From Bacteroidales bacterium (GTDB lineage: Bacteria; Bacteroidota; Bacteroidia; Bacteroidales; JAADJA01): a stretch of DNA of 64,000 bases. The DNA lies in assembly GCA_020438105.1 (NCBI GenBank), contig JAGQVE010000002.1, forward strand, positions 62,001 to 126,000. The letters are read 5' to 3'. The position numbers and the translations under genes are program-made. This document shows positions 3,749 to 47,612 of the stretch, in pieces. The notes below the pieces were generated by a model. The model was given only the letters and a program-made list of their open reading frames with translations. It made no database searches and was not told where the DNA came from. Positions within the stretch are counted from its first letter, which is position 1. Each line of letters begins with the position of its first letter.

Positions 3749-4474
3749 TTATTCTTCAATTTTACCTGCAGTGTACTTTGTGGTTTTAATCACCTTGCCG
3801 GTTGGATCAAATTCAATCCACTCCCCATCCTTTTCCCCGGCCTTATAGTTACCGGTTATTTTCTTTTTGCCTGTTGGATAAAATTCCACATAGGCACCTT
3901 CAAGAATATTATTACTGTAGTTTTTTTCTGCTTCAATGTTTCCGCTTGGGTAAAAAGTTCTGTTTATCCCATCAAATAGTCCATCCTTATAATTATACTG
4001 AGCCACCATTTTAGCATTTTCATCAAACCATTTGCTGGTACCCGACTTAACACCATTCTTATAATTTGACTCCTCCATCATCCGGCCGTTTTCATAATAC
4101 ATGGTGTATTTGCCCCAAAGTAACCCATCCTTATAGGAAGCTTTAGTTTTCGGTTTATTGGCACTGTAATATTCTATCACCCAGCCATCAAGCTTCCCAT
4201 GAATATAAAACTCCTGTTTGGTGAGTGTGCCCACCCGGTCGAAGGTAAGGCAAACACCCTCCTTGAAACCCTCATTATATGTTTCAACCTCAGAGATGAT
4301 CCCTTCGCGGCTCACTTTGATCCATGATCCGTTTTTCTGACCATTTTTATAAAACCCCTTTTCTGTATAGCTTCCAAGTTTTCTTTCGAAAAAACCATTT
4401 TCAGGTGGTTGCTGGGCATAAAGTGTAAAAGAAACCGAAACCAGCGCCAATACTAATATTCTTGATAAATTCAT
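3749..4474 (-). CDS. Secreted YwqK/MORN-like repeat protein
   Basis: Protein of 241 aa with a clear signal peptide (MNLSRILVLALVSVSFTLYA) followed by about eight imperfect repeats of roughly 22-24 residues. They have the form Y.nGk..G.w..y...G.......Y..G, as in YKNGQKNGSWIKV and YKDGLLWGKYTMYYENG. This is the pattern annotated as a toxin-antitoxin YwqK-family antitoxin or MORN variant. In Bacteroidota such secreted proteins are common and rarely sit next to a toxin, and none is seen here. The function is unknown, perhaps a periplasmic or surface beta-repeat scaffold. It starts the two-gene unit with the thioesterase. Confidence 0.75.
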   Translation of the reverse strand: MNLSRILVLALVSVSFTLYAQQPPENGFFERKLGSYTEKGFYKNGQKNGSWIKVSREGIISEVETYNEGFKEGVCLTFDRVGTLTKQEFYIHGKLDGWVIEYYSANKPKTKASYKDGLLWGKYTMYYENGRMMEESNYKNGVKSGTSKWFDENAKMVAQYNYKDGLFDGINRTFYPSGNIEAEKNYSNNILEGAYVEFYPTGKKKITGNYKAGEKDGEWIEFDPTGKVIKTTKYTAGKIEE

Positions 4475-4955: not shown

Positions 4956-6335
4956 ATGAATATTACAAAGGAAAGTACTGGAGATTTAACAGCAACAATT
5001 CAAATTGACCTTACTGCTGAAGATTATGGCGAAAAGGTAAATGCAGCTTTAAAAGAGCTTCAGCGTAAAGCAGCCCTCAAAGGGTTCAGGCCGGGCAAAG
5101 TGCCTTTTGGCCTTGTTAAGAAAATGTATGGAAATTCAGCCATGGCTGAAGAGGTAAATAAAATATTATCCGAATCATTAAACAATTACATCAAAGATAA
5201 TGAGCTGGATATTTTAGGATATCCGATAGCAAATGAAGAAAAAAACCAGAAAGTTGATTTCGAAAATCAAACCGAATTCAGTTTCTTTTTTGATATTGGA
5301 ACGGCCCCTGAAGTTAACCTTGAAATTAATGATAAAACAGCGGTTACTTTTTATAACATAACTGTTGAAGATGAAAAAGTGGATGATTATCTGAAAAACA
5401 TCCGTAACCAGTTTGGCGCAAATATTAATCCTGAAACCGCTGAAAAAGGTGACTTGATCAAAGGTGATTTTGTTCAGGTAAATGGAGATGGAAATCCGAT
5501 TGAAGGCGCAGTAACTCACAATTCATCATTATCCATTGAATTTGTCAAGGACGAAGATGTGCAGAAGAAATTCGTTGGGGCCAAGGTGGGCGATAAAATT
5601 GTTTTCAATCCACTCAAAGCAACCGGCAACGAAAGTGAAACTTCGTCGATGTTGAATATTGCCAAAGACGACCGTGAAAAAATGGAGTCGGATTACCAGT
5701 TTACCTTAACTGAAATCAGCAGAATTGCACCCGCAGAAGTAAATAAAGAATTATTTGATAAGGTTTATCCAACCGATAACATTGAAACGGAAGAGCAATT
5801 CCGCGAACGCTTGCGGCAGGAGGCTTCCAAATATTTCCAGAAAGAATCCGACAACTTCTTTGTGCATGAAACACTGGAAAAATTGGTTAATGAAACTGAT
5901 ATTCCATTACCCGAGGAGTTTGTAAAACGCTGGATGCTCGAAACCGATGATAAACTTACCAAAGAGTCGATCGATCATGATTTTGAACATTACGCTAAAT
6001 CGCTCAAACAGCAGCTTATCGTTAATAAAATTGCAAAGGATCATGATATCAAAGTAGATGAACAGGATGTAAGAAATCACATCAAAGGCTATTTTGGGAA
6101 ACAATATATGATCGATATCACGGATGAGGAAAAGAGCAAACAACTTGATGCACTTGTAAACTCAGTAATGCAAAACCAGGAAGAAGTCAGAAAAATCTAT
6201 GACGAATTATTCGACGAAAAAGTGCGTGAGATTTTTAAAAACAACCTTAAATTAAACAAGGTTGACGTTACTTATGATAAATTTATTGAAACTGTAAACG
6301 AACATCACAAACATCATCATAACCATGAACATTAA
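4956..6335 (+). CDS. tig: Trigger factor, ribosome-associated peptidyl-prolyl isomerase/chaperone
   Basis: Protein of 459 aa. The N-terminal ribosome-binding domain contains [17 protein letters not shown] (about 43-59), the trigger-factor signature whose FRK-type loop docks near the ribosomal exit tunnel. A central FKBP-like region (about 150-250) shows [12 protein letters not shown] and weak conservation, as is usual in Bacteroidota, and a long helical C-terminal chaperone domain follows. The protein ends in a histidine-rich tail ([10 protein letters not shown]), which could bind metal. It assists folding of nascent chains in the cytoplasm. Its last 11 nt overlap the clpP start, so the two genes are translationally coupled. 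Confidence 0.93.
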
Positions 6336-9001: not shown

Positions 9002-9646
9002 TTAGTTATGTTTTCCCTTTTGCCCACTTGATGTAGCTTTCCATTGATTGTACTCCCTTACCATTTTATATACATCGGCATAATTGTATTCCCGACTGCG
9101 TAGCTTTTCGGCTATTTCATCATTGTCACTGAAAAATTCGATAAGTTTATTCTGAGGTGTATGTTTTCCCATCAATATTTTTTTCCCATCTGGCATTAAA
9201 ATATAAAAGAAAAATCGTTCATCAAAGTCATTCACCCCATAAACATACTCAGCCAATTCAAAGGCGCTGGAAAGGCTTTTGTCGCTGGAAGGATAATATT
9301 TATATAATTTAAGATACCCCTGATCGCCAATAACCATTAAAAACAGATGTGAGTCTTTATAAAAATTAACTGAAACAAAAGCGGGAGTTTGAAAATCGTA
9401 AAAGAAATAAAAAGAGCTAATGCTGCCCGGAAGATAAATTTTTCTCACCCCATCTTTATTATAAAACACGAGCTTATCCTGCAACTTTGCATGCTCAAGC
9501 CTGCCTTCCTTATCGGTTTTTATCCTGATCTTTCCGTAAATGGTATCTCCCTGGTTGGTAATAATGTAACCCTCCACTTTTTTGGTTCCTGCATAAAGCG
9601 CAAAAGCAAAAAGTATAAATGAACCTAAAAGGAATAGTTTTTTCAT
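9002..9646 (-). CDS. Secreted protein of unknown function
   Basis: Protein of 214 aa with a signal peptide (MKKLFLLGSFILFAFALYA). It is followed by KKVEGYIITNQGDTIYGKIRI, a motif common at the start of small beta-rich secreted proteins in Bacteroidota, where a 'nnGDTiyGkI' strand is recurrent. The rest is rich in aromatic beta strands (SSFYFFYDFQTPAFVSVNFY) and ends in a polar, basic helix. I do not recognise the family beyond this. It is the last gene of the minus-strand run starting with the oxidoreductase at 13088, 38 nt downstream of the sugar transferase. Confidence 0.6.
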   Translation of the reverse strand: MKKLFLLGSFILFAFALYAGTKKVEGYIITNQGDTIYGKIRIKTDKEGRLEHAKLQDKLVFYNKDGVRKIYLPGSISSFYFFYDFQTPAFVSVNFYKDSHLFLMVIGDQGYLKLYKYYPSSDKSLSSAFELAEYVYGVNDFDERFFFYILMPDGKKILMGKHTPQNKLIEFFSDNDEIAEKLRSREYNYADVYKMVREYNQWKATSSGQKGKHN

Positions 9647-9684
9647 TATTTATTGATTGGAAAGATAACTGAATTGGGTATGAT

Positions 9685-11100
9685 TTATTTTCCGCGACCC
9701 TGAATTACAATTAAAACCGTGTAGATCATAATTTTAACATCCATAGCCAGCGACATATTTTCGATATAAAGGATATCGTATTTCAGCCTTTCGATCATTT
9801 CATCCACATTCGAAGCATAACCATACTTTACCTGTCCCCAAGAGGTGATTCCCGGTTTTACCTTGTGAAGTAACCTGTAATGAGGTGCTCGCTGAACGAT
9901 TTGATCAATAAAGAACTGCCTTTCGGGCCTGGGGCCCACCAGCGACATATCACCCTTAAATACCGAATAAAATTGTGGAATCTCATCCAATCTGACTTTT
10001 CGCAAAAATTTACCAAACGGTGTTATGCGGCTGTCATTTTCAGAAGAAAGCATGGGTGTTCCTTTCTCAGCATCATTTCGCATTGAGCGGAACTTATACA
10101 TAAAAAAAGGCTTGCTGTGAATTCCAATGCGTTCCTGTTTGTAAATTACAGGGCCTTTAGATGAGAATTTAACGCCTAAGGCAACACCTATATATACCGG
10201 CAGTAAAATGATCATCCCTATCAGTGATATTACAATATCCAGGATCCGCTTTAACGACATTTGCCATGCAGGCATTAAATCGGGTGAAATTTTAACAAGC
10301 GGAGCATGCCAAATACCTTCGGTTTTGACCGCGCCGGTTATAAAATCCTGCAAACTTGGGATGATTTTAATTACTACTTCTGTGTCCTCAATTTCCGTGA
10401 TGATATTTTCAATTTTCTTTTGTTCCTTGCGCTCAATGGCAATGATCACCTCTTCAATCTTATAGTCATCAATAATTTTACGAAGCGATTTTATATCGCC
10501 AAGGTGCTTACAATGTTCTGCAAGTAAATAGTTATCGTATTTCTCGGCATTAACAAAACCCACAAATTTATTACCCGATGAAAGCCGTTCATTTTCTATT
10601 TCATTGTAGATTTTAACCGCATTGGCATTGCTGCCAACAATTACCGTATTAAAACCGATTGCCCGTTTGTGAATTTTGCGGATAGTTCTTGTCGTAAGAA
10701 ACAAGCGGAAAAAATAAGTAAATGAGAAATGTAACAGAAAAAGAATCAGGAAGGATTGATAATAGGACCTGTATGAAATTATAATATCGTCGAGAATAAT
10801 GGAAAAGAAAATAAAAATTACCCCGATAAATGTTATTCCCAAAGTTTGGCTTAATTCTTTCAGCCTCGATTTACGGTATATTTTACGGTAAGTACCGATG
10901 ATAATGTAAAGTGTAAGCCAAAATAAAGGAATGATTGCCAGCCCAACATATAGTTTTCTGTCAGCAAAAATCAGTTCAGGATTTTGAAATACATCAGGTG
11001 TTACAACATATTTGCGGTAGGTAAAAAACAAGCTCCAGGCAATTGCTGCTGAGAGGACATCGGCGAATACATATTTTGCTACCTGTAAATTTTTATTCAT
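9685..11100 (-). CDS. Polyprenyl glycosylphosphotransferase (initiating sugar transferase)
   Basis: Protein of 471 aa of the WcaJ/WbaP-like family. It has four or five N-terminal membrane segments (to about residue 125), a Rossmann-like cytoplasmic CoA-binding-type region (NTVIVGSNANAVKIYNEIE), and a further membrane helix (KRILDIVISLIGMIILLPVY). The C-terminal catalytic domain follows, with KQERIGIHSKPFFMYKFRSM, LRKVRLDEIPQFYSVFKGDM and SLVGPRPERQFF. These enzymes transfer a sugar-1-phosphate to undecaprenyl phosphate as the first step of exopolysaccharide or capsule synthesis. No glycosyltransferase cluster surrounds it here, so the polymer is unknown. It is 15 nt downstream of the lipoprotein gene. 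Confidence 0.9.
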   Translation of the reverse strand: MNKNLQVAKYVFADVLSAAIAWSLFFTYRKYVVTPDVFQNPELIFADRKLYVGLAIIPLFWLTLYIIIGTYRKIYRKSRLKELSQTLGITFIGVIFIFFSIILDDIIISYRSYYQSFLILFLLHFSFTYFFRLFLTTRTIRKIHKRAIGFNTVIVGSNANAVKIYNEIENERLSSGNKFVGFVNAEKYDNYLLAEHCKHLGDIKSLRKIIDDYKIEEVIIAIERKEQKKIENIITEIEDTEVVIKIIPSLQDFITGAVKTEGIWHAPLVKISPDLMPAWQMSLKRILDIVISLIGMIILLPVYIGVALGVKFSSKGPVIYKQERIGIHSKPFFMYKFRSMRNDAEKGTPMLSSENDSRITPFGKFLRKVRLDEIPQFYSVFKGDMSLVGPRPERQFFIDQIVQRAPHYRLLHKVKPGITSWGQVKYGYASNVDEMIERLKYDILYIENMSLAMDVKIMIYTVLIVIQGRGK

Positions 11101-14006: not shown

Positions 14007-14954
14007 ATGAAAAAACTAACGTATTTATTAGGTTTGCTGGTTGTTGCCAGTGCTATTTTCACATCCTGCTCAAAAGATGAAACTGAGCCCGATCCACCAA
14101 GCATTACTTTCCTGGGAGGAACTGAACCGTCAACCGGTTGGGAACGTGTGGATGGCGATGTTAGCCTTACAGTAGGAGAGCCTTTTGTATTTGGATTTAC
14201 AGCATCAAGTAATTCTGACAAAAATTTATCCACGATCAAAGTTACACGGAACTATGAAAATGTTACACAAAGTACACTGCTCGACTCAGCAGTTAGTGTA
14301 AAAAGTTTCACCATTGATATCCAAACCATCGCTTTCCCAAATGTTCCAGGCAGCGAAGTATTTGAAGTAACTGTTACTGATAAAAATGGCAAATCTTCTT
14401 CTTTGAGCTTTACGGTAACTACTACAGCAGTTGATCCAGGTATTACCGAGTATAATAATGTTGAACTCGGGTCTTACGATATTTCTACACCAAGTTCGTT
14501 TGCCAGTATTACAGGTGAAACTTTTGAAATTACTGCAGCTACTGCCGATGAAGCAATTCAGGCAAAAATCGATTGGGTGTATTTTGACGGTGCAACTGGG
14601 GGCCACACAATTATGTCTCCCGCCAATGCAAGTATCGAAGCTATTTACCCTTCAATCGCTGGGTGGACAAATCGGAACTCTACACTGATGGCAAAAACGA
14701 CACTTTCAGTAAATGACTATGAGTCAATTGAAACTAAAACACAAATGATCGCTGTTATTTCTAATCAGGGTTTAACTTTTGATAAAAACTTTTATAGTGA
14801 AAATACATCAAATCCCGGTGGATTTTCTGTTGGAGATATTTTTGCATGTGAAACTTCAACTGGCAAATATGCACTTATTAAAATTATCGAAGTTAATCAG
14901 GGAGCTTCAAATGGTAAAAGCACCATTAAATATAATATTAAAGTTGAGAAATAG
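14007..14954 (+). CDS. Lipoprotein with Ig-like domain and paralogous C-terminal domain (copy A)
   Basis: Protein of 315 aa with a lipoprotein signal (LLVVASAIFTSCSKDE; Cys at about 21). A D/E/P-rich linker is followed by one Ig-like beta domain (about 30-145) that ends in a 'VTDKNGKSSSLSFTVT' strand. A second domain of about 165 residues contains YNNVELGSY, IDWVYFDGATGGHTIMSPAN and WTNRNSTLMAKTTL. This second domain is clearly shared with the next gene. Family function unknown; I expect attachment to the outer membrane. A strong terminator separates it from its paralogue, so the two genes can be controlled separately. Confidence 0.75.
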   Translation: MKKLTYLLGLLVVASAIFTSCSKDETEPDPPSITFLGGTEPSTGWERVDGDVSLTVGEPFVFGFTASSNSDKNLSTIKVTRNYENVTQSTLLDSAVSVKSFTIDIQTIAFPNVPGSEVFEVTVTDKNGKSSSLSFTVTTTAVDPGITEYNNVELGSYDISTPSSFASITGETFEITAATADEAIQAKIDWVYFDGATGGHTIMSPANASIEAIYPSIAGWTNRNSTLMAKTTLSVNDYESIETKTQMIAVISNQGLTFDKNFYSENTSNPGGFSVGDIFACETSTGKYALIKIIEVNQGASNGKSTIKYNIKVEK

Positions 14955-41081: not shown

Positions 41082-41615
41082 ATGAATAAAATGAACAAGA
41101 TAAAACTCAGCCCGAAAATCGTATTTGTAATCAGTTTAATCGCTTTTGGCGCCCTTATGCGCTTATTGCCTCACTGGCCAAACTTCACTCCCATTGCGGC
41201 AATGGCATTATTTGGCGGTGCTCAACTTGGCAAAAAGCACCTTGCGTTTATCATTCCGTTGGCAGCTTTGTTTTTAAGTGATCTCGTTTTAGGTCTTCAT
41301 CAATGGATGATCGCGGTTTATGTGAGTTTTGCGCTGGTGGTTGTCCTTGGGATATGGTTGAAAAAAAGCATTAAGGTTGGAACCGTTTTAATGGCTACCC
41401 TGGCCTCTTCCACCTTGTTTTTCATTATAACCAACTTTGCCATGTGGATTGGCGCACCCTATTACAGTCAGGATATTTACGGATTACTGGAATGTTATAC
41501 ACTTGCCCTTCCGTTTTTCCTGAATGGCATCATGGGCGACCTGTTTTTTAGCGGGATATTCTTTGGGTCCTTCTATCTTGTGCAACAGCGTTACCCGGCA
41601 CTGGTCAGGGCGTAA
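41082..41615 (+). CDS. DUF6580 family membrane protein
   Basis: Protein of 177 aa with about five membrane segments. Hallmarks are LMRLLPHWPNFTPIAAMALFGGAQL near the N-terminus (the RxxPHxxNFxP(V/I) motif typical of the family), then AALFLSDLVLG and a final PFFLNGIMGDLFFSGIFFG. The family is a putative substrate-binding transport component related to energy-coupling-type S proteins; nothing here identifies the ligand. Start chosen at ATG 41082 rather than TTG 41070. It ends with a strong terminator at 41639. Confidence 0.8.
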   Translation: MNKMNKIKLSPKIVFVISLIAFGALMRLLPHWPNFTPIAAMALFGGAQLGKKHLAFIIPLAALFLSDLVLGLHQWMIAVYVSFALVVVLGIWLKKSIKVGTVLMATLASSTLFFIITNFAMWIGAPYYSQDIYGLLECYTLALPFFLNGIMGDLFFSGIFFGSFYLVQQRYPALVRA

Positions 41616-41638
41616 ATTCAAAAAGAAATTGAAGGAAG

Positions 41639-41667
41639 AAGCGTTGCTTAGGCGGCGCTTTTTTTGT
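41639..41667 (+). terminator. Intrinsic terminator after the DUF6580 gene
   Basis: aagcgttgc (41639-41647) pairs over 9 bp with gcggcgctt (41652-41660), with two G-U pairs, around a ttag loop, followed by a run of T. A convincing Rho-independent terminator. Confidence 0.85.
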
Positions 41668-41689
41668 TTAAGTTACAAAATTGCACTTT

Positions 41690-43390
41690 ATGTCAGTCAA
41701 TGATTCGTTCCAAACCGATCGGCTTACGCTTCGCCCTGTCAGCATTGATGATGCCCATTTCATTTATGACCTTATGAACTCAGCAGGTTGGTTGCAGTTT
41801 ATTGGCGACAGGAACATTGGTTCGGTGATGGCTGCTGAAAAATATATCAGGGAACGGATGTTTCCACAATTCAACCGGCTGGGATTTGGTAATTATACAA
41901 TTATTTCAAAGTCTGATAATAATAAGATTGGCACCGTTGGTTTGTTTGACCGGGATGGTGTTAATGGAATTGACCTGGGTTTTGCACTTCTGCCGGAATT
42001 TGAAGGATTCGGATATGCTTATGAGGCGGCAAAACGACTTCAGCAAGCTGCCTGTGAAGATTTTGGGCTGGATGAATTGAGCGCGATAACAACAAAGGAT
42101 AACAGCCGGTCGCAGCAATTATTGAAAAGATTAGCTTTTGAAACAGAAAGTTCACTAATACTTCCCAATGATACTGAGGAGTTATTATTATTTAAATGGA
42201 AAAACCCCGATAAGGAATTAATAGGAAAGATCTTTAAATATTCTAAAGTACTTCGAATTATCACCTCCATCTTGGGAGCCCTATTGATCTTTGCCGGAAT
42301 GGCATTATTAGGATTTGCCTTCTTTGATTACGAATCATTATCTGCCGTAAAATATGTTTTTATCCCAATGGGAGTAATTCTTTTAGGCCTTGCAATAATG
42401 GGTTTATTAGAAGTTTATAAAACTCGATTTATTATCGGCAGAAATGAACTTACAAGGATAGCACCATTTTACACTCGAGTATTAAAATTTAACGAAATAA
42501 AAGGGACATATGAAAGACAAAGCAATCTCGAAATTTTGCCAAAAAATGCCAGGAAAAAGAAACTTATGATAAGTGAATACATTAAAGGCTATGCTGGCCT
42601 TAGTTTTTATTTGCGCCCAAAATTCCCAAATTATAATGTAATGGGTATTAGCCCGGAATTGGATGAGATTTATAATAATGAATCTTATGGAGCAACAATG
42701 GACGATCGGAAAAACAAATATATTCAGAACAGTAAAATCGTTAAAAGACTCAATTTAGCATCCTGGATAATTTCTATAGTTTCCTTTTTTATCTCTTTTT
42801 ATATTGAGTTTTTCATTTTTATACTCATCCCAATACCACTTTTTGGAATTTTCTTATTCTGGAGATTAAAAGGGATGATACCACTTCTGGAAATTAAAAA
42901 AACTGATCTTCCTTCATTTTCCAGCAACTTATTGGTACCTTCTTTAGGTTTATCATTAAAGCCAATATTTTTAAATGATATACTATCCTTTCAAAATTTT
43001 TGGATGCCTGCACTAATAATAGTCATCGTACTAACAGCATTTACATTAGCTGCATTGATAAATACCATGAAAAATCACCGCGTAATCATATATTTAAGTT
43101 TTGCAATTATTATAAATAGTATGTATGCCTATGGAACCACTTTAATTATCAATCATGTTTTAGACAAATCCGAAGCTAAGGTTTATAAAACAGTAGTCCT
43201 CGATAAACGTATTGAGTATGGAAAATATACCAATTATTATATCAAAATTGATAAATGGGGACCACAATCAAAAATTAAAGATATAGATGTCGATAAAACT
43301 TTTTACAATCAAACCGAAATAGGTGATCGGGTCATTATTATTCTTCATCAAGGATTTTTTAAAATCCCATATTATAATGTTTACCAATGA
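41690..43390 (+). CDS. GNAT acetyltransferase fused to a polytopic membrane domain
   Basis: Protein of 566 aa from the ATG at 41690 (a TTG at 41681 would add three residues). Residues 1-175 are a RimJ/RimL-type GNAT: TDRLTLRPVSIDDAHFIYDLM, IDLGFALLPEFEGFGYAYEA (acetyl-CoA binding) and ITTKDNSRSQQLLKRLAF. Normal family members end about here. The chain instead continues into two membrane helices (about 187-243), a soluble part like a bacterial PH domain (RFIIGRNELTRIAPFY), more helices (about 350-385 and 430-485) and a C-terminal soluble tail. The membrane part is visibly more A/T-rich than the GNAT part. A recent gene fusion is likely; membrane-part function unknown. Confidence 0.7.
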   Translation: MSVNDSFQTDRLTLRPVSIDDAHFIYDLMNSAGWLQFIGDRNIGSVMAAEKYIRERMFPQFNRLGFGNYTIISKSDNNKIGTVGLFDRDGVNGIDLGFALLPEFEGFGYAYEAAKRLQQAACEDFGLDELSAITTKDNSRSQQLLKRLAFETESSLILPNDTEELLLFKWKNPDKELIGKIFKYSKVLRIITSILGALLIFAGMALLGFAFFDYESLSAVKYVFIPMGVILLGLAIMGLLEVYKTRFIIGRNELTRIAPFYTRVLKFNEIKGTYERQSNLEILPKNARKKKLMISEYIKGYAGLSFYLRPKFPNYNVMGISPELDEIYNNESYGATMDDRKNKYIQNSKIVKRLNLASWIISIVSFFISFYIEFFIFILIPIPLFGIFLFWRLKGMIPLLEIKKTDLPSFSSNLLVPSLGLSLKPIFLNDILSFQNFWMPALIIVIVLTAFTLAALINTMKNHRVIIYLSFAIIINSMYAYGTTLIINHVLDKSEAKVYKTVVLDKRIEYGKYTNYYIKIDKWGPQSKIKDIDVDKTFYNQTEIGDRVIIILHQGFFKIPYYNVYQ

Positions 43391-43405
43391 TTTGTTACAA
43401 TTCAT

Positions 43406-43413
43406 TATTTTTG
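43406..43413 (+). promoter_or_regulatory. -7 element upstream of the 43454 gene
   Basis: TATTTTTG lies 40 nt before the ATG at 43454. A TTTG occurs 11 nt upstream of it, closer than the normal -33 spacing. Confidence 0.4.
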
Positions 43414-43453
43414 CGACCTACACCAACAATCAGAACAAAATTTATATTTATCT

Positions 43454-43834
43454 ATGAAAAAATTCAAGCCAGTGTTTGCTGTTATCCTCGCCACAATTTG
43501 GATCAGCATCTCCGAGTTTGTCCGCAATGAGTTTATCCTGAAATCCTATTGGACCGAACATTATCAAAACCTGGGTTTAACCTTTCCTTCCGAACCCATT
43601 AACGGTGCCATTTGGGGAATATGGTCATTGTTCTTCGCAATTGGGATTTTTTTGATTGCAAAAAAATTCAGTCTGTGGCATACCACCTTTATTAGCTGGT
43701 GGATGGGCTTTGTACTTATGTGGGTAGTAACCGGGAATATGGCCGTACTGCCTTTTGACATTCTTCCGTTTGCCATACCACTGAGCTTACTCGAAGCTTT
43801 TTTGGCCAGTTTAATTATTAAGAAATTGAGCTAA
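43454..43834 (+). CDS. Small membrane protein of unknown function
   Basis: Protein of 126 aa with about four membrane helices (KPVFAVILATIWISISEFV; IWSLFFAIGIFLIA; FISWWMGFVLMWVVTG; LPFAIPLSLLEAFLASLII). The segment EFVRNEFILKSYWTEHYQNLGLTFP is reminiscent of short uncharacterised Bacteroidota proteins with a conserved periplasmic loop. No function can be inferred. It has its own promoter and is followed 61 nt later by an unrelated lipoprotein gene. Confidence 0.6.
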   Translation: MKKFKPVFAVILATIWISISEFVRNEFILKSYWTEHYQNLGLTFPSEPINGAIWGIWSLFFAIGIFLIAKKFSLWHTTFISWWMGFVLMWVVTGNMAVLPFDILPFAIPLSLLEAFLASLIIKKLS

Positions 43835-43895
43835 TCTTAAGCGGTTTATACTAATATCATTAAATTAGCCGTTACAAAAAAGCTAAAATCTTGTC

Positions 43896-44402
43896 ATGAA
43901 AAGATTTCTCCCGATCATCGCTTTTCTGATCATTTTATTTTTTGTTTTTACCTGCAATTCAAAAGACAACGAACAAGTTGAGGGTATCCCTATTACAAAT
44001 ACTTCCTGTAACCTTTATAAAAGCAACCCGGACTCACTGTCGGTTCCATCGGATCAATCTTGTATTAATTACAGCTATGATGAGGTTTCCAAAAAATTAA
44101 CGTTCATTCATAAAAATGCAGCATTTAACTGTTGCCCGGGTACAATCTATTATAATCCAACTGCCAATGACAGCCTGATCAGCATCCGGGAATTTGAAAC
44201 AGAGGGTTTGTGTGATTGCAGTTGTTTGTATGATTTAAACATGACTATTTCTAATGTGGAAGCCAGGCATTATCTGGTTAAATTTATCGAGCCTTATCGG
44301 GGTGGACAGGAGGAACTGGTATTTGATGTCGATTTAATCAATTTTCCAACAGGAGTGTATTGTGTAAGCAGATATAATTACCCCTGGGGAATAAACAAAT
44401 AA
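43896..44402 (+). CDS. Cysteine-rich lipoprotein of unknown function
   Basis: Protein of 168 aa. The lipoprotein signal (LIILFFVFTCNSKDN, Cys at about 20) precedes a compact domain with many cysteines: NTSCNLY, DQSCINYSY, AFNCCPGTIYY, EGLCDCSCLYDLN and GVYCVSRYNYPWG. The paired CC and CDCSC spacing suggests several disulfides or a metal site. Proteins with a CDCxCxYD motif occur in other bacteria as hypothetical secreted proteins. Probably surface- or periplasm-exposed. No operon partner is evident beyond loose co-direction with its neighbours. Confidence 0.65.
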   Translation: MKRFLPIIAFLIILFFVFTCNSKDNEQVEGIPITNTSCNLYKSNPDSLSVPSDQSCINYSYDEVSKKLTFIHKNAAFNCCPGTIYYNPTANDSLISIREFETEGLCDCSCLYDLNMTISNVEARHYLVKFIEPYRGGQEELVFDVDLINFPTGVYCVSRYNYPWGINK

Positions 44403-44432
44403 ATACTTTGATAATTAACTTCAATTTTAATT

Positions 44433-45497
44433 ATGAAAAGAATCATATTAGTTTTATCATTCGTTGTTCCTTTTTTTGCGTTTTCGCAAAGTGACTTTGC
44501 CTATTTTCAGGATATCTTTTTCGGCCGGCAACCCACAGCCCATGCCGAGGCGCTGGGAGGCAGTTTAAGTTCCCTTGACGGTGACCTTTCTGCCACCTAT
44601 TACAATCCTGCAGCCTCCTCTTCCATTGAAGGTTTACAAGTTGCAGGGTCTTACTCTTCTCCCGTTTCTGTAATTGATGATGCCTACTACAATTACCTGG
44701 GAGCAGGTTATAAACTTAACCGCTTTTTAACATTCGGGATCACGCGCTACCATTTTAGTTATGGAGAAATTTACCTGACCGATGAAACCGGAACATTGAC
44801 CGGAGGGAAAGTTAAGCCACGAGACTCCTTTTACACCCTTAACCTTTCTTCTGAACCCAGAAAAAATCTCTATGTCGGAATAAACATAAATTACCAGGAC
44901 TGGGAATTTGTGCAATTAAAAGATCAAACACTATTTGCCGATTTCGGAATTATCAAAAAATTTATCATTTCCCGGGAAAAGAATAAAAATCAATCCGTGA
45001 ATGTCGGAGCTGGTATTACGAATTTCACATTTTCAAAGTTAAAACCTAAAATAGATGATGAAGTGTATGAATATAAACTTCCGGCAATTACAAGGTTTGG
45101 CGTTAATTATAGTTACGGTACGGGAATACGGGAGCGGCCCGACAGTCTGGAAATGTTTAAAGTAACCGTACTGGCCGATTATAATACAGTATTAAATTCG
45201 GCATACTTTACATCATTTCGTTCAGGGGCCGAATTGCAGTTTTTTGAATTTGTACTGGTCCGGCTTGGATATTATAATCAGTTTATAAATGATCACGATA
45301 TGCCTGAGTATTATAAGGATCATCTCAGTCAGTTTACCTGGGGACTTGGTATTAATTTCCCACTTCATAAAATTGCAGAAATCCCATTACAGTTTACCTT
45401 TGACTACACCTCCTTACCACAAGAAAGTAATAACAAGGAAGCCGTGGATTACGACAATTTCACTACCTGGTCGGCCCGGTTGAGCATTTTTCTTTAA
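44433..45497 (+). CDS. Outer-membrane beta-barrel protein (PorV/PorQ-like)
   Basis: Protein of 354 aa with a signal peptide (LVLSFVVPFFAFS). The early segment HAEALGGSLSSLDGDLSATYYNPAA matches the 'aaalGgs..sL.gDl.a..yNPA' block of small FadL-like barrels in Bacteroidota, including the PorV/PorQ proteins of type IX secretion. Alternating strands follow to the C-terminal ARLSIFL. I am not sure it is PorQ itself: length and opening fit, but no other type IX gene is in the window. Other possibilities are a plain FadL-type transporter or an uncharacterised barrel. Confidence 0.6.
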   Translation: MKRIILVLSFVVPFFAFSQSDFAYFQDIFFGRQPTAHAEALGGSLSSLDGDLSATYYNPAASSSIEGLQVAGSYSSPVSVIDDAYYNYLGAGYKLNRFLTFGITRYHFSYGEIYLTDETGTLTGGKVKPRDSFYTLNLSSEPRKNLYVGININYQDWEFVQLKDQTLFADFGIIKKFIISREKNKNQSVNVGAGITNFTFSKLKPKIDDEVYEYKLPAITRFGVNYSYGTGIRERPDSLEMFKVTVLADYNTVLNSAYFTSFRSGAELQFFEFVLVRLGYYNQFINDHDMPEYYKDHLSQFTWGLGINFPLHKIAEIPLQFTFDYTSLPQESNNKEAVDYDNFTTWSARLSIFL

Positions 45498-45501
45498 CTG
45501 A

Positions 45502-46083
45502 ATGAGCATGAGTGAAAATTATTTCTTTGGGCAAAACTTCCAAAACAAGGACTTTACAAAAGCACCATTTACAATCAGCGAATTTGAGGCATGCACTTTT
45601 AAAGGTTGTAATTTTACTGACCTCGATCTTTCTGAGTTTAGGTTTATTGATACCAGTTTTATTGACTGCAACCTGAGCAATGCCAAATTACTAAAAGCCG
45701 CCTTTCAGGGTGTTTCTTTTAAGGATTGTAAGTTACTTGGTTTGCATTTCGAAGATTGTAACACATTTAATTTTTCTATACATTTTGAAAATTGCCAGCT
45801 TGATCATGCATCGTTCTACGAAATAAAGTCCGGTGGATTAAATTTTAGGAATTGCCAGTTAAAAGGGGTTGACTTTACTGAGGCCAACCTAAAAAACAGC
45901 ACCTTAATTGAATGCGATCTTTCAGAAGCAATATTTGATCAAACAAACCTGCAAAATGCTGATTTACGAAATTCAGTAAACTATCAAATCGATCCTGATA
46001 AAAATATTATCAAGGGCGCCCGGTTTTCTATGCCGGATGTGGTTGGGTTACTAGTTAAATATGATATTTTAATAGACCCTTGA
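45502..46083 (+). CDS. Pentapeptide-repeat protein
   Basis: Protein of 193 aa, almost wholly built of A(D/N)LxX-type pentapeptides (FKGCNFTDLDLSEFRFID, NCQLKGVDFTEANLKN, CDLSEAIFDQTNLQNADL), which fold as a right-handed quadrilateral beta-helix. The layout with an insertion in mid-protein and a short C-terminal ending (YQIDPDKNIIKGARFSMPDVVGLL) resembles the McbG/Qnr-type DNA-mimic group, which protects gyrase. I cannot prove gyrase binding, and the protein is shorter than Qnr. Co-directional with the beta-barrel gene 5 nt upstream, so probably cotranscribed. Confidence 0.85.
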   Translation: MSMSENYFFGQNFQNKDFTKAPFTISEFEACTFKGCNFTDLDLSEFRFIDTSFIDCNLSNAKLLKAAFQGVSFKDCKLLGLHFEDCNTFNFSIHFENCQLDHASFYEIKSGGLNFRNCQLKGVDFTEANLKNSTLIECDLSEAIFDQTNLQNADLRNSVNYQIDPDKNIIKGARFSMPDVVGLLVKYDILIDP

Positions 46084-46235
46084 ATTGTCCAGGCAAGGTC
46101 CACACTTTAAGAGGTCATAAAAACATGGGGAATTAAAAAAAGCAGAATCCCCGGAAACACCTGAAAAGTAAAAAAAGGTGGATTAAAAGAGCCGTTAGGG
46201 TAATCGAACTCCTTATAATTCTCAGCATTTTTACT

Positions 46236-46688
46236 GTGATTATTCCTATATGCATTCAGGGTGATCGTAGCAGGTCATTTGAAATTAAAACAAACAAGCC
46301 TGCATTTATAAGGGAAGGCGCATTAACCTTCATTAGAGAGTCAAAAAATAAGGATATTAAAATAGATATCGAAATCACTGACAACCGCTTTGAGCAGGTT
46401 CGCGGATTGATGTTCAGGACCAACCTGCCCGAAATGGGTGGCATGCTGTTTATCATGGATCGCGAGGAGCCACAGTCATTCTGGATGAAAAACACTTATA
46501 TTTCGCTGGATATCATTTATGTGGATAGCCGGTTTGAAATAGTTACTATTCAAAAATACACACAACCACTATCCGAAGAGTCAATCCCTTCGGGCAAAAT
46601 GGCTAAATACATGGTGGAGGTTAATGCCGGATTTTGTGACAGATTTGGCATTATGGAAGGTGATAAAATTAAATTCAACCGAATTTAA
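46236..46688 (+). CDS. DUF192 family protein, start uncertain
   Basis: The DUF192 domain (about 35-150) has FEQVRGLMFRTNLPEMGGMLFIM and WMKNTYISLDIIYVDSRFEIV. DUF192 proteins are small periplasmic or membrane-linked proteins of unknown function. The only reasonable start in the track is GTG 46236, which cuts through a predicted helix. The same frame stays open upstream to 46137, encoding a basic segment and a full helix (VIELLIILSIFTVIIPICIQG), but without an ATG. A lone ATG at 46125 in the same frame is followed after three codons by TAA. The true gene therefore starts at an unusual codon or carries a nonsense change. Coordinates are the minimum. Confidence 0.6.
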   Translation: MIIPICIQGDRSRSFEIKTNKPAFIREGALTFIRESKNKDIKIDIEITDNRFEQVRGLMFRTNLPEMGGMLFIMDREEPQSFWMKNTYISLDIIYVDSRFEIVTIQKYTQPLSEESIPSGKMAKYMVEVNAGFCDRFGIMEGDKIKFNRI

Positions 46689-46777
46689 AGCCATTCAATC
46701 TTACTAAACAAACTATTCTAAAATTGGTTTTACAATTACCAATTCATTGAATATTTATATCAAATCAAACAAATCAA

Positions 46778-47170
46778 ATGGATCCAGTAGTACATTTTGA
46801 AATGCCGGCCAAAGACAGGGACCGCATGAGTGATTTTTATGCAAAAGCCTTCGGATGGGTAGCCCACAAGTATGGCGAAGAAATGGGAAATTATGTAGTA
46901 GTGCATACAGCTGATACCGATGAGAACGGTATGATTCAGCAAAAAGGCGCAATTAACGGCGGTTTATTTCCAGTTAAAGAAAGTGATCCGCCTCAATACC
47001 CTTCAGTGGTAATATCGGTGGATGATATTCATGCTTCCGTTAAAAAAATTCAGGAAGCGGGTGGAAAAGTAAATGGGGAGCCTATGAAAATACCTGGTAT
47101 CGGGCTATATGTTCAATTTACGGATACCGAGGGCAATGTGTCGAGCATTTTGCAACCTGTAATGAGATAG
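46778..47170 (+). CDS. VOC-superfamily (glyoxalase-fold) protein
   Basis: Protein of 130 aa with two beta-alpha-beta-beta-beta units of the vicinal-oxygen-chelate fold: VVHFEMPAKDRDRMSDFYAKAFGW opens the first and YPSVVISVDDIHASVKKIQEAGGKV the second, ending in GLYVQFTDTEGNVSSILQ. The FEMPA..D...DFY..AFGW start is typical of the cytoplasmic VOC proteins annotated as lactoylglutathione-lyase-like. Specific activity (glyoxalase, dioxygenase or binding protein) cannot be told. It is independent, between DUF192 and a convergent GroES-like gene, with a terminator between them. Confidence 0.8.
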   Translation: MDPVVHFEMPAKDRDRMSDFYAKAFGWVAHKYGEEMGNYVVVHTADTDENGMIQQKGAINGGLFPVKESDPPQYPSVVISVDDIHASVKKIQEAGGKVNGEPMKIPGIGLYVQFTDTEGNVSSILQPVMR

Positions 47171-47182
47171 CGATATAAAATA

Positions 47183-47209
47183 TAAGGCCGCAACTTTGTT
47201 GCGGCCTTA
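47183..47209. terminator. Bidirectional hairpin between convergent genes
   Basis: taaggccgcaac (47183-47194) and gttgcggcctta (47198-47209) pair perfectly over 12 bp around a ttt loop. It lies between the VOC gene (stop 47170) and the minus-strand GroES-like gene (stop 47229). U-runs are weak on both sides. Confidence 0.7.
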
Positions 47210-47228
47210 GTCTAAAAGCATTTATTTT

Positions 47229-47612
47229 CTATTCAAACAAACTCTCATCCCGCTCAAGCAGCAGGATAGAATGCTGCGGAACAATGAAATACTTCTCATT
47301 GTCGTACATCACTTCCACAGCACCCTTTTGCATGAAAATAGCCAGGTCACCTTCACGGGCCTGTAAAGGGATGTATTTGATCTTATCGTCAGCCTTTTTC
47401 CAGGGCTCGTCGATGTCATCACCGGGCAAGGGAATCGGATAACCCGGTCCCACTTTGATCACATACCCTGAGTGCACATCCTCCTTTTCCTGGTATCCCG
47501 GAGGCAGCAACAAGCCACCTTTACTGGTTTTGTCGTGCTTAACTGGTTTGATCAACACCCGGTCGCCAACTACGATCAAATTGCTTAATTTCCCTTTGCC
47601 GTTTACTTCCAT
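47229..47612 (-). CDS. Divergent GroES-like co-chaperone
   Basis: Protein of 127 aa with the 10-kDa chaperonin fold: VVGDRVLIKPVKHDKTSKGGLLLPPG matches the GroES start and 'mobile loop' strand, and GDLAIFMQKGAVEVMYDNEKYFIVP matches its second half. It is longer than standard GroES (about 97 aa) because of an insertion around GYPIPLPGDDIDEPWKKADDK. No groEL lies beside it. It may be a specialised co-chaperone for a variant chaperonin or an independent binding protein. Start at ATG 47612; a TTG at 47618 is also possible. It is the last gene of the carbamate kinase-argF run. Confidence 0.8.
   Translation of the reverse strand: MEVNGKGKLSNLIVVGDRVLIKPVKHDKTSKGGLLLPPGYQEKEDVHSGYVIKVGPGYPIPLPGDDIDEPWKKADDKIKYIPLQAREGDLAIFMQKGAVEVMYDNEKYFIVPQHSILLLERDESLFE

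Follow-up and report, generated by a model that had tools for sequence, protein, structure and literature searches.

Acetyltransferases of the RimJ/RimL type (PF13302), such as SpeG and PA3944, are free-standing GNAT enzymes. A few eukaryotic GNATs are membrane-bound. In bacteria, the joining of GNAT folds to a membrane domain is known from MprF, the aminoacyl-phospholipid synthase/flippase, in which the flippase membrane part comes first, two tandem GNAT folds follow via TM14 and aminoacyl-tRNA is used (PMC8131360). Here we describe a different arrangement in a Bacteroidales draft genome, within a 64,000-nucleotide stretch of DNA that was analysed as a whole and is called the window below. 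An uninterrupted plus-strand frame of 566 residues begins at ATG 41690 and ends with the stop codon at 43388-43390 (an alternative start, TTG 41681, would add three residues); it encodes a RimJ/RimL-type GNAT at the N-terminus followed by a multi-pass membrane protein (Table 1). We consider, with a probability of about 75%, that this is a real lineage-specific gene fusion yielding a membrane-tethered acetyltransferase. A chance reading frame was rejected because full-length relatives are known for both halves. Among the genomes sampled, the fusion is found in one draft genome, that of the window.

Table 1. Predicted features of the fused GNAT-membrane protein in window coordinates
Feature	Residues	Positions	Strand	Basis
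GNAT N-acetyltransferase domain (Acetyltransf_3, RimJ/RimL type)	1-171	41690..42202	+	PF13302 match, free-standing relatives
Short joint, usual GNAT end to usual membrane-protein start	172-177	42203..42220	+	standalone ends and starts
Membrane module	178-566	42221..43387	+	alignments to relatives, starts of 19 full-length relatives
Transmembrane helices 1-2	194-212 and 222-240	42269..42409	+	hydropathy, AlphaFold2 helices
PH-like soluble domain	~246-311	42425..42622	+	AlphaFold2, PH-domain chains with Z up to 9.3
Second membrane-helix group	350-487	42737..43150	+	hydropathy (four; a fifth possible at ~412-430 by eye), AlphaFold2 at low confidence
Five-strand beta domain at the C-terminus, with a fold possibly like DUF2500	494-566	43169..43387	+	Foldseek top row 3q6c, E 0.055; 3rd4_C, Z 7.2

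An earlier note on this DNA had proposed a complete RimJ/RimL GNAT at the N-terminus, and the Acetyltransf_3 profile confirms it, since PF13302 matches residues 11-150 over profile positions 1-137 of 138 with 80.9 bits against a curated cut-off of 25.4 (E 1.9e-22). The acetyl-CoA loop, of the GxGxA type, reads GFGYAYEA at residues 106-113, and G108, A110 and E112 are invariant in an alignment of the GNAT half with four free-standing relatives. SpeG and PA3944 are among its nearest solved structures, and the SpeG and RimJ equivalogs (NF011709 and NF008072) score far under their NCBIfam cut-offs (23.2 vs 218 and 15.2 vs 190 bits). Free-standing relatives share from 24 to about 54-55% identity with the GNAT half, L110 being 54% identical. 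At the order level, 6 of 291 genomes have a GNAT match at E <= 1e-10, and at E <= 1e-20 the full-length query has matches in 36 of the 295 genomes of the class; both counts include the window's own genome. Apart from the window's own, each match in the class search covers one half or the other, the two widest (10-202 and 169-564) both reading across a stop codon, and no match in those 295 genomes spans both halves. Three records of the phage collection match the GNAT part alone at 28-36% identity, and a search of viral_contigs found no relative of it. By sequence, the GNAT half is of a free-standing enzyme type common in the class.

The C-terminal ends of the relatives are also informative. 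They were read at 28 loci, of which 26 are GNATs, L005 and L107 being one place. By eye, 24 of the 26 GNATs end within 12 residues of fused-protein residue 171, with tails such as ...LYVWRANRDV (55% identity), ...YYLWEAKK, ...FEWELNKVNGMLA, ...LMLYSN and ...LLFST, and the membrane module is absent from all 26 tails. The exceptions are L007, with 19 additional residues, and L123 on the reverse strand, which continues for about 140 residues past residue 171 in a soluble-looking extension unlike the membrane module, possibly another fused form by eye.

For the membrane half, hydropathy places the two helices of Table 1 first and further helices around residues 350-390 and 439-487. AlphaFold2, run on the half with six sequences (mean pLDDT 63.7), predicts two long helices, six strands with a helix (pLDDT about 80), low-confidence helices and a five-strand domain, which bears out the order of two helices, PH-like stretch, more helices and soluble tail given in the earlier note. 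The PH-like label is probably a fair one as well. A PH domain is a seven-strand barrel with a C-terminal helix as its cap, and PH domains come first in VIA-align over membrane-half residues 1-143 (5ums, Z 9.3, 85 residues, rmsd 3.0), with 3dcx, a DUF1696 structure, at Z 7.6; no PH-family sequence match lies above cut-off, and Foldseek gives no match to the membrane-half model at E <= 0.001. Over membrane-half residues 320-392 the match is 3rd4_C (Z 7.2, 67 residues, rmsd 2.7), which presumably belongs to the same family as 3q6c, named DUF2500. VIA-align ranks among the Foldseek candidates, most of its rows covering membrane-half residues 1-143 and few the low-confidence middle helices, and its middling Z values would indicate at most a common arrangement. 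At the sequence level, no curated Pfam family matches the membrane half above cut-off, and the half alone finds nothing in NCBIfam at E <= 1.

Basic residues lie after helix 2, before helix 3, after helix 4 and between the last two helices. By the positive-inside rule, this distribution would put the GNAT and the PH-like domain on the cytoplasmic side, and which side the C-terminal beta domain is on hinges on one weak helix. A model of the full-length protein has low confidence over the GNAT, its alignment containing no GNAT rows, and this counts against the fusion reading. An anti-phage role was set aside because the PADLOC models match the fused protein with no family at E <= 0.1.

As the earlier note had advised, the two halves were searched separately, and each was found as a gene alone; of the genomes sampled, only this one has a joined copy. 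Six relatives align with the whole of residues 178-566 at 24-32% identity, and a seven-member family profile, of which the window protein is itself one row, is matched over positions 2-391 of 391 (E 5.5e-155). The window copy is the only match among 60 near relatives (17 of the genus, this genome included). A search of 295 genomes of the order, with a limit of E <= 1, gave 27 genomes, of which we count five: the window's own, three with strong relatives (E 1.5e-51 to 1.5e-56) and one with a weaker relative (6.7e-22, internal stop), the other 22 at E 0.008-0.5 being left out. The seven-member profile finds matches at E <= 0.001 in 14 of 395 phylum genomes and 20 of 395 class genomes, the window's own in both, some of the weakest rows probably being false relatives, such as L097, a different membrane protein by sequence, and L099 and L103, which have no BLAST match. 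Five members occur in named Bacteroidota assemblies, three of these being, to judge by their identical lengths, contigs already counted in the order search, and one member lies on a Persicobacter megaplasmid. No relative was found in viral_contigs, nor in a single-sequence search of genome_contigs with P0003. Nineteen loci qualify as full-length relatives, with a match from query position <=20 to >=375, and in all of them an in-frame stop lies 0-66 codons 5' of the start, which leaves no room for an N-terminal GNAT of about 170 residues. Partial matches cover the C-terminal part only (for example L076, L077, L082, L088-L092 and L101) or the N-terminal part only (L078-L080 and L094). Weak sequence matches to DUF2500 (PF10694) occur in three of the seven family members (best E 0.0087) and to DUF4131 (PF13567) in four (best E 4.7e-5), and with the limits applied, the window protein has no match to either. 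These alignments identify the membrane half as a member of an uncurated Bacteroidota family of standalone membrane proteins.

The joint lies where a GNAT usually ends and a membrane protein of this family usually starts. When the 19 full-length relatives are aligned to the fused protein, their starts, which were picked mechanically, fall at residue 178 in three, 179 in five, 180 in five, 174-176 in three and further upstream in three. Codons 177-180 of the fused gene read TTA ATA GGA AAG, and there is no in-frame ATG, GTG or TTG between residues 145 and 195 (codons 146-194). The genes are thus joined stop-to-start, and both signals are missing. The former stop and start are not readable from the sequence and the relatives' starts vary, which counts against the fusion reading; however, the odds of a fusion are unchanged by the variable starts, since it stands whichever codon served as the start before. 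An altered TAA-ATG at TTA-ATA (177-178) was suggested by alignments of five and seven rows, but with starts varying across the 19 relatives it was dropped and is just one option. Elsewhere in the family, of the 22 relatives with a covered N-terminus, 5 have a stop codon immediately 5' of the ATG (L086 having no ATG there). In two of these 5, both on the reverse strand, the ATG (2664 in L083, 1830 in L094) abuts the in-frame stop of an upstream open reading frame of 244 and 499 residues, respectively, and these membrane genes are one substitution away from a fusion, the L094 frame being only 114 residues long.

The same two relatives, with membrane genes one stop codon from an in-frame upstream frame, speak for the fusion reading and also lend something to the alternative that the window gene is an error, two adjacent genes having been merged by wrong base calls or a misjoin, as do the draft state of the genome (143 contigs, 90.64% complete) and the restriction of the fusion to it among those sampled. 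We nevertheless judge such an error distinctly unlikely. Both the GNAT stop and the usual membrane start are gone, which is beyond one wrong base and makes a single sequencing error unlikely, and syntenic genes stand on both sides of the fusion in a contig of 234,520 bases, so that a chimera would need two misjoins within about 2 kb. L083 and L094 also call to mind a bolder speculation, namely that the membrane family is mobile and inserts as a plug-in directly behind the stops of unrelated genes and that the loss of a stop here gave a working membrane-anchored acetyltransferase of a kind undescribed before, which we find very doubtful.

The base composition of the frame adds to this picture in part. 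The counts behind the A/T-rich shift that the earlier note reported, 29 G/C of 60 at 42001-42060 and 15 of 60 at 42781-42840, are exact, and the break across the open reading frame is beyond chance (log-likelihood ratio 14.5 vs a maximum of 7.6 in 300 shuffles). Its best position, 42117 (support 42109-42136), lies about 85-105 bases 5' of the joint at ~42203-42223, which counts against the fusion reading; third codon positions alone place the break loosely (best 41882, support 41828-42371). Third-position G+C is 0.382 in the GNAT half vs 0.262 in the membrane half, against a mean of 0.403 (sd 0.060) over 49 window ORFs that include the fused one. The low value is not unique, a further point against the fusion reading: 2 of the 49 ORFs have a lower fourfold-site G+C, and the ORF at 14007-14951, the lowest of the 49 listed in third-position G+C (0.263), is level with the membrane half. 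Hydrophobicity was rejected as the cause, since seven other hydrophobic window ORFs (mean hydropathy >=0.74) have third-position G+C of 0.39-0.51. At each of the six standalone loci that were measured, the membrane gene has less G+C than the DNA around it, and low G+C alone therefore does not date the fusion. Thus, of the suggestion of a recent joining or a lost stop codon, the lost stop fits the joint, whereas the composition break lies off it and gives no date.

The DNA may also be correct while the membrane protein is additionally or exclusively made as a separate chain from a rare start, for example ATA 42221, or while the fusion is a non-functional step of decay. The ATA is within the range of the relatives' starts and both genes are patchily distributed, but ATA is a rare start codon, both halves are full length with no internal stops, and the conserved GNAT positions G97, G108, A110, E112, N138 and S141 are retained. 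Separate production or decay is thus unlikely in our estimation.

The place of the fusion in the genus was compared at four loci, in G012, G005, G014 and G008. In G012, the closest sibling, the neighbour upstream of the fusion is 84-85% identical and both flanking genes are kept (L064:6540-7067 and 9612-9989), with a glycosyltransferase-like gene and another gene (names by eye) between them in place of the fusion. In G005 and G014 the window block starting at 47229 directly follows the upstream gene (41070) with nothing between, and in G008 different genes follow the upstream gene. Since content differs at the same place in these genomes, the fusion locus is a site of gene gain and loss, and window 41615-47229 is a variable block in the genus.

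Possible cassette-like elements were seen at other loci. At the syntenic place in G012, a palindromic element of about 145 bases (L064:8652-8796) lies beside the glycosyltransferase-like gene, with 87-89% identical copies in the window's own genome (G000:C77:44033-44166) and in G014 (C40 and C57), and matches to it occur in 4 of the 17 genomes of the genus. As single-stranded DNA it has a strong fold (z -3.84), and in its likeness to integron attC sites it is a candidate for one. Elements sharing a GTAGCCCGC...TTTGAAGYCCGCAA-like core lie beside two standalone genes of the family (L042 ~3755-3810 and ~5107-5150; L047 ~2934-2980), as if these were cassette-borne. The two of this type that were folded do not exceed their shuffles in strength (z -0.56 and 2.17), and the short left motif also matches six other sources, the window minus strand included. 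An integron-like cassette around the window gene was not adopted: its flanks show no such element, and only one of the three folded elements is stronger than its shuffles.

Our preferred reading, a lineage-specific fusion, would start from a free-standing GNAT gene of the class-common type lying in frame directly 5' of an accessory gene, rich in A/T, for a membrane protein. The first would have had its end near residue 171-177 and the second its start a few codons further on. Substitutions may then have removed the GNAT stop and the membrane start, or a short spacer may have dropped out in frame; either course leaves an identical trace in the sequence. The product is most likely a tethered, cytoplasmic acetyltransferase: a single protein with its GNAT in the cytoplasm together with acetyl-CoA, held at the inner membrane face by the C-terminal module of two helices, PH-like domain, membrane helices and beta domain. 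The GNAT would go on acetylating an amine, be it of a protein or of a small molecule, but would do so at the membrane, with whatever benefit tethering may bring. It is extremely improbable that the fusion represents an old, functionally selected and wider-spread architecture. A GNAT-like gene (L043:5277-5936, named by eye) does lie 52 bases upstream of a standalone membrane gene, possibly by coincidence, but it is barely similar to the window GNAT (best blastp E 0.015, 21 residues); the nearest upstream same-strand ORF is GNAT-like in 0 of 16 of the other 18 full-length relatives (by eye; L072 and L075 left out), and none of the other genomes sampled has a fused copy.

If made as one chain, the protein would be a clear example from nature of how a soluble enzyme can acquire a membrane anchor when its gene fuses with the one next to it, and the unfused forms of both genes are at hand to compare. 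It makes no long-standing question testable, and it points to a scattered, uncurated membrane family of the Bacteroidota. This family has all the domains of residues 178-566 (two transmembrane helices, PH-like domain, further helices and beta domain), but its members stand alone with their own start (ATG in 18 of 19, TTG in L086), whereas the window module has none. The last ~70 residues of the window protein may resemble DUF2500 in fold (Foldseek E 0.055; Z 7.2), with no Pfam match in the window protein. With RimJ/RimL-type GNATs the window GNAT has the domain model, length and acetyl-CoA loop in common and, unlike them, is joined to a membrane module. The open-access literature searched yielded no paper on a GNAT linked to a membrane domain in bacteria with the terms used. 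The likeness to MprF lies in the covalent link between a GNAT fold and a multi-pass membrane domain, with the GNAT in the cytoplasm, as PMC8131360 describes for MprF and as we infer for the window protein. However, the layout of an N-terminal flippase and then tandem GNAT folds is not that of the fused protein, which differs from MprF in having a single acetyl-CoA-type GNAT, in placing it first and in its membrane partner. Because of these differences, what is new here is one domain combination, in one genome, while the joining of a GNAT to a membrane domain itself has a precedent in MprF.
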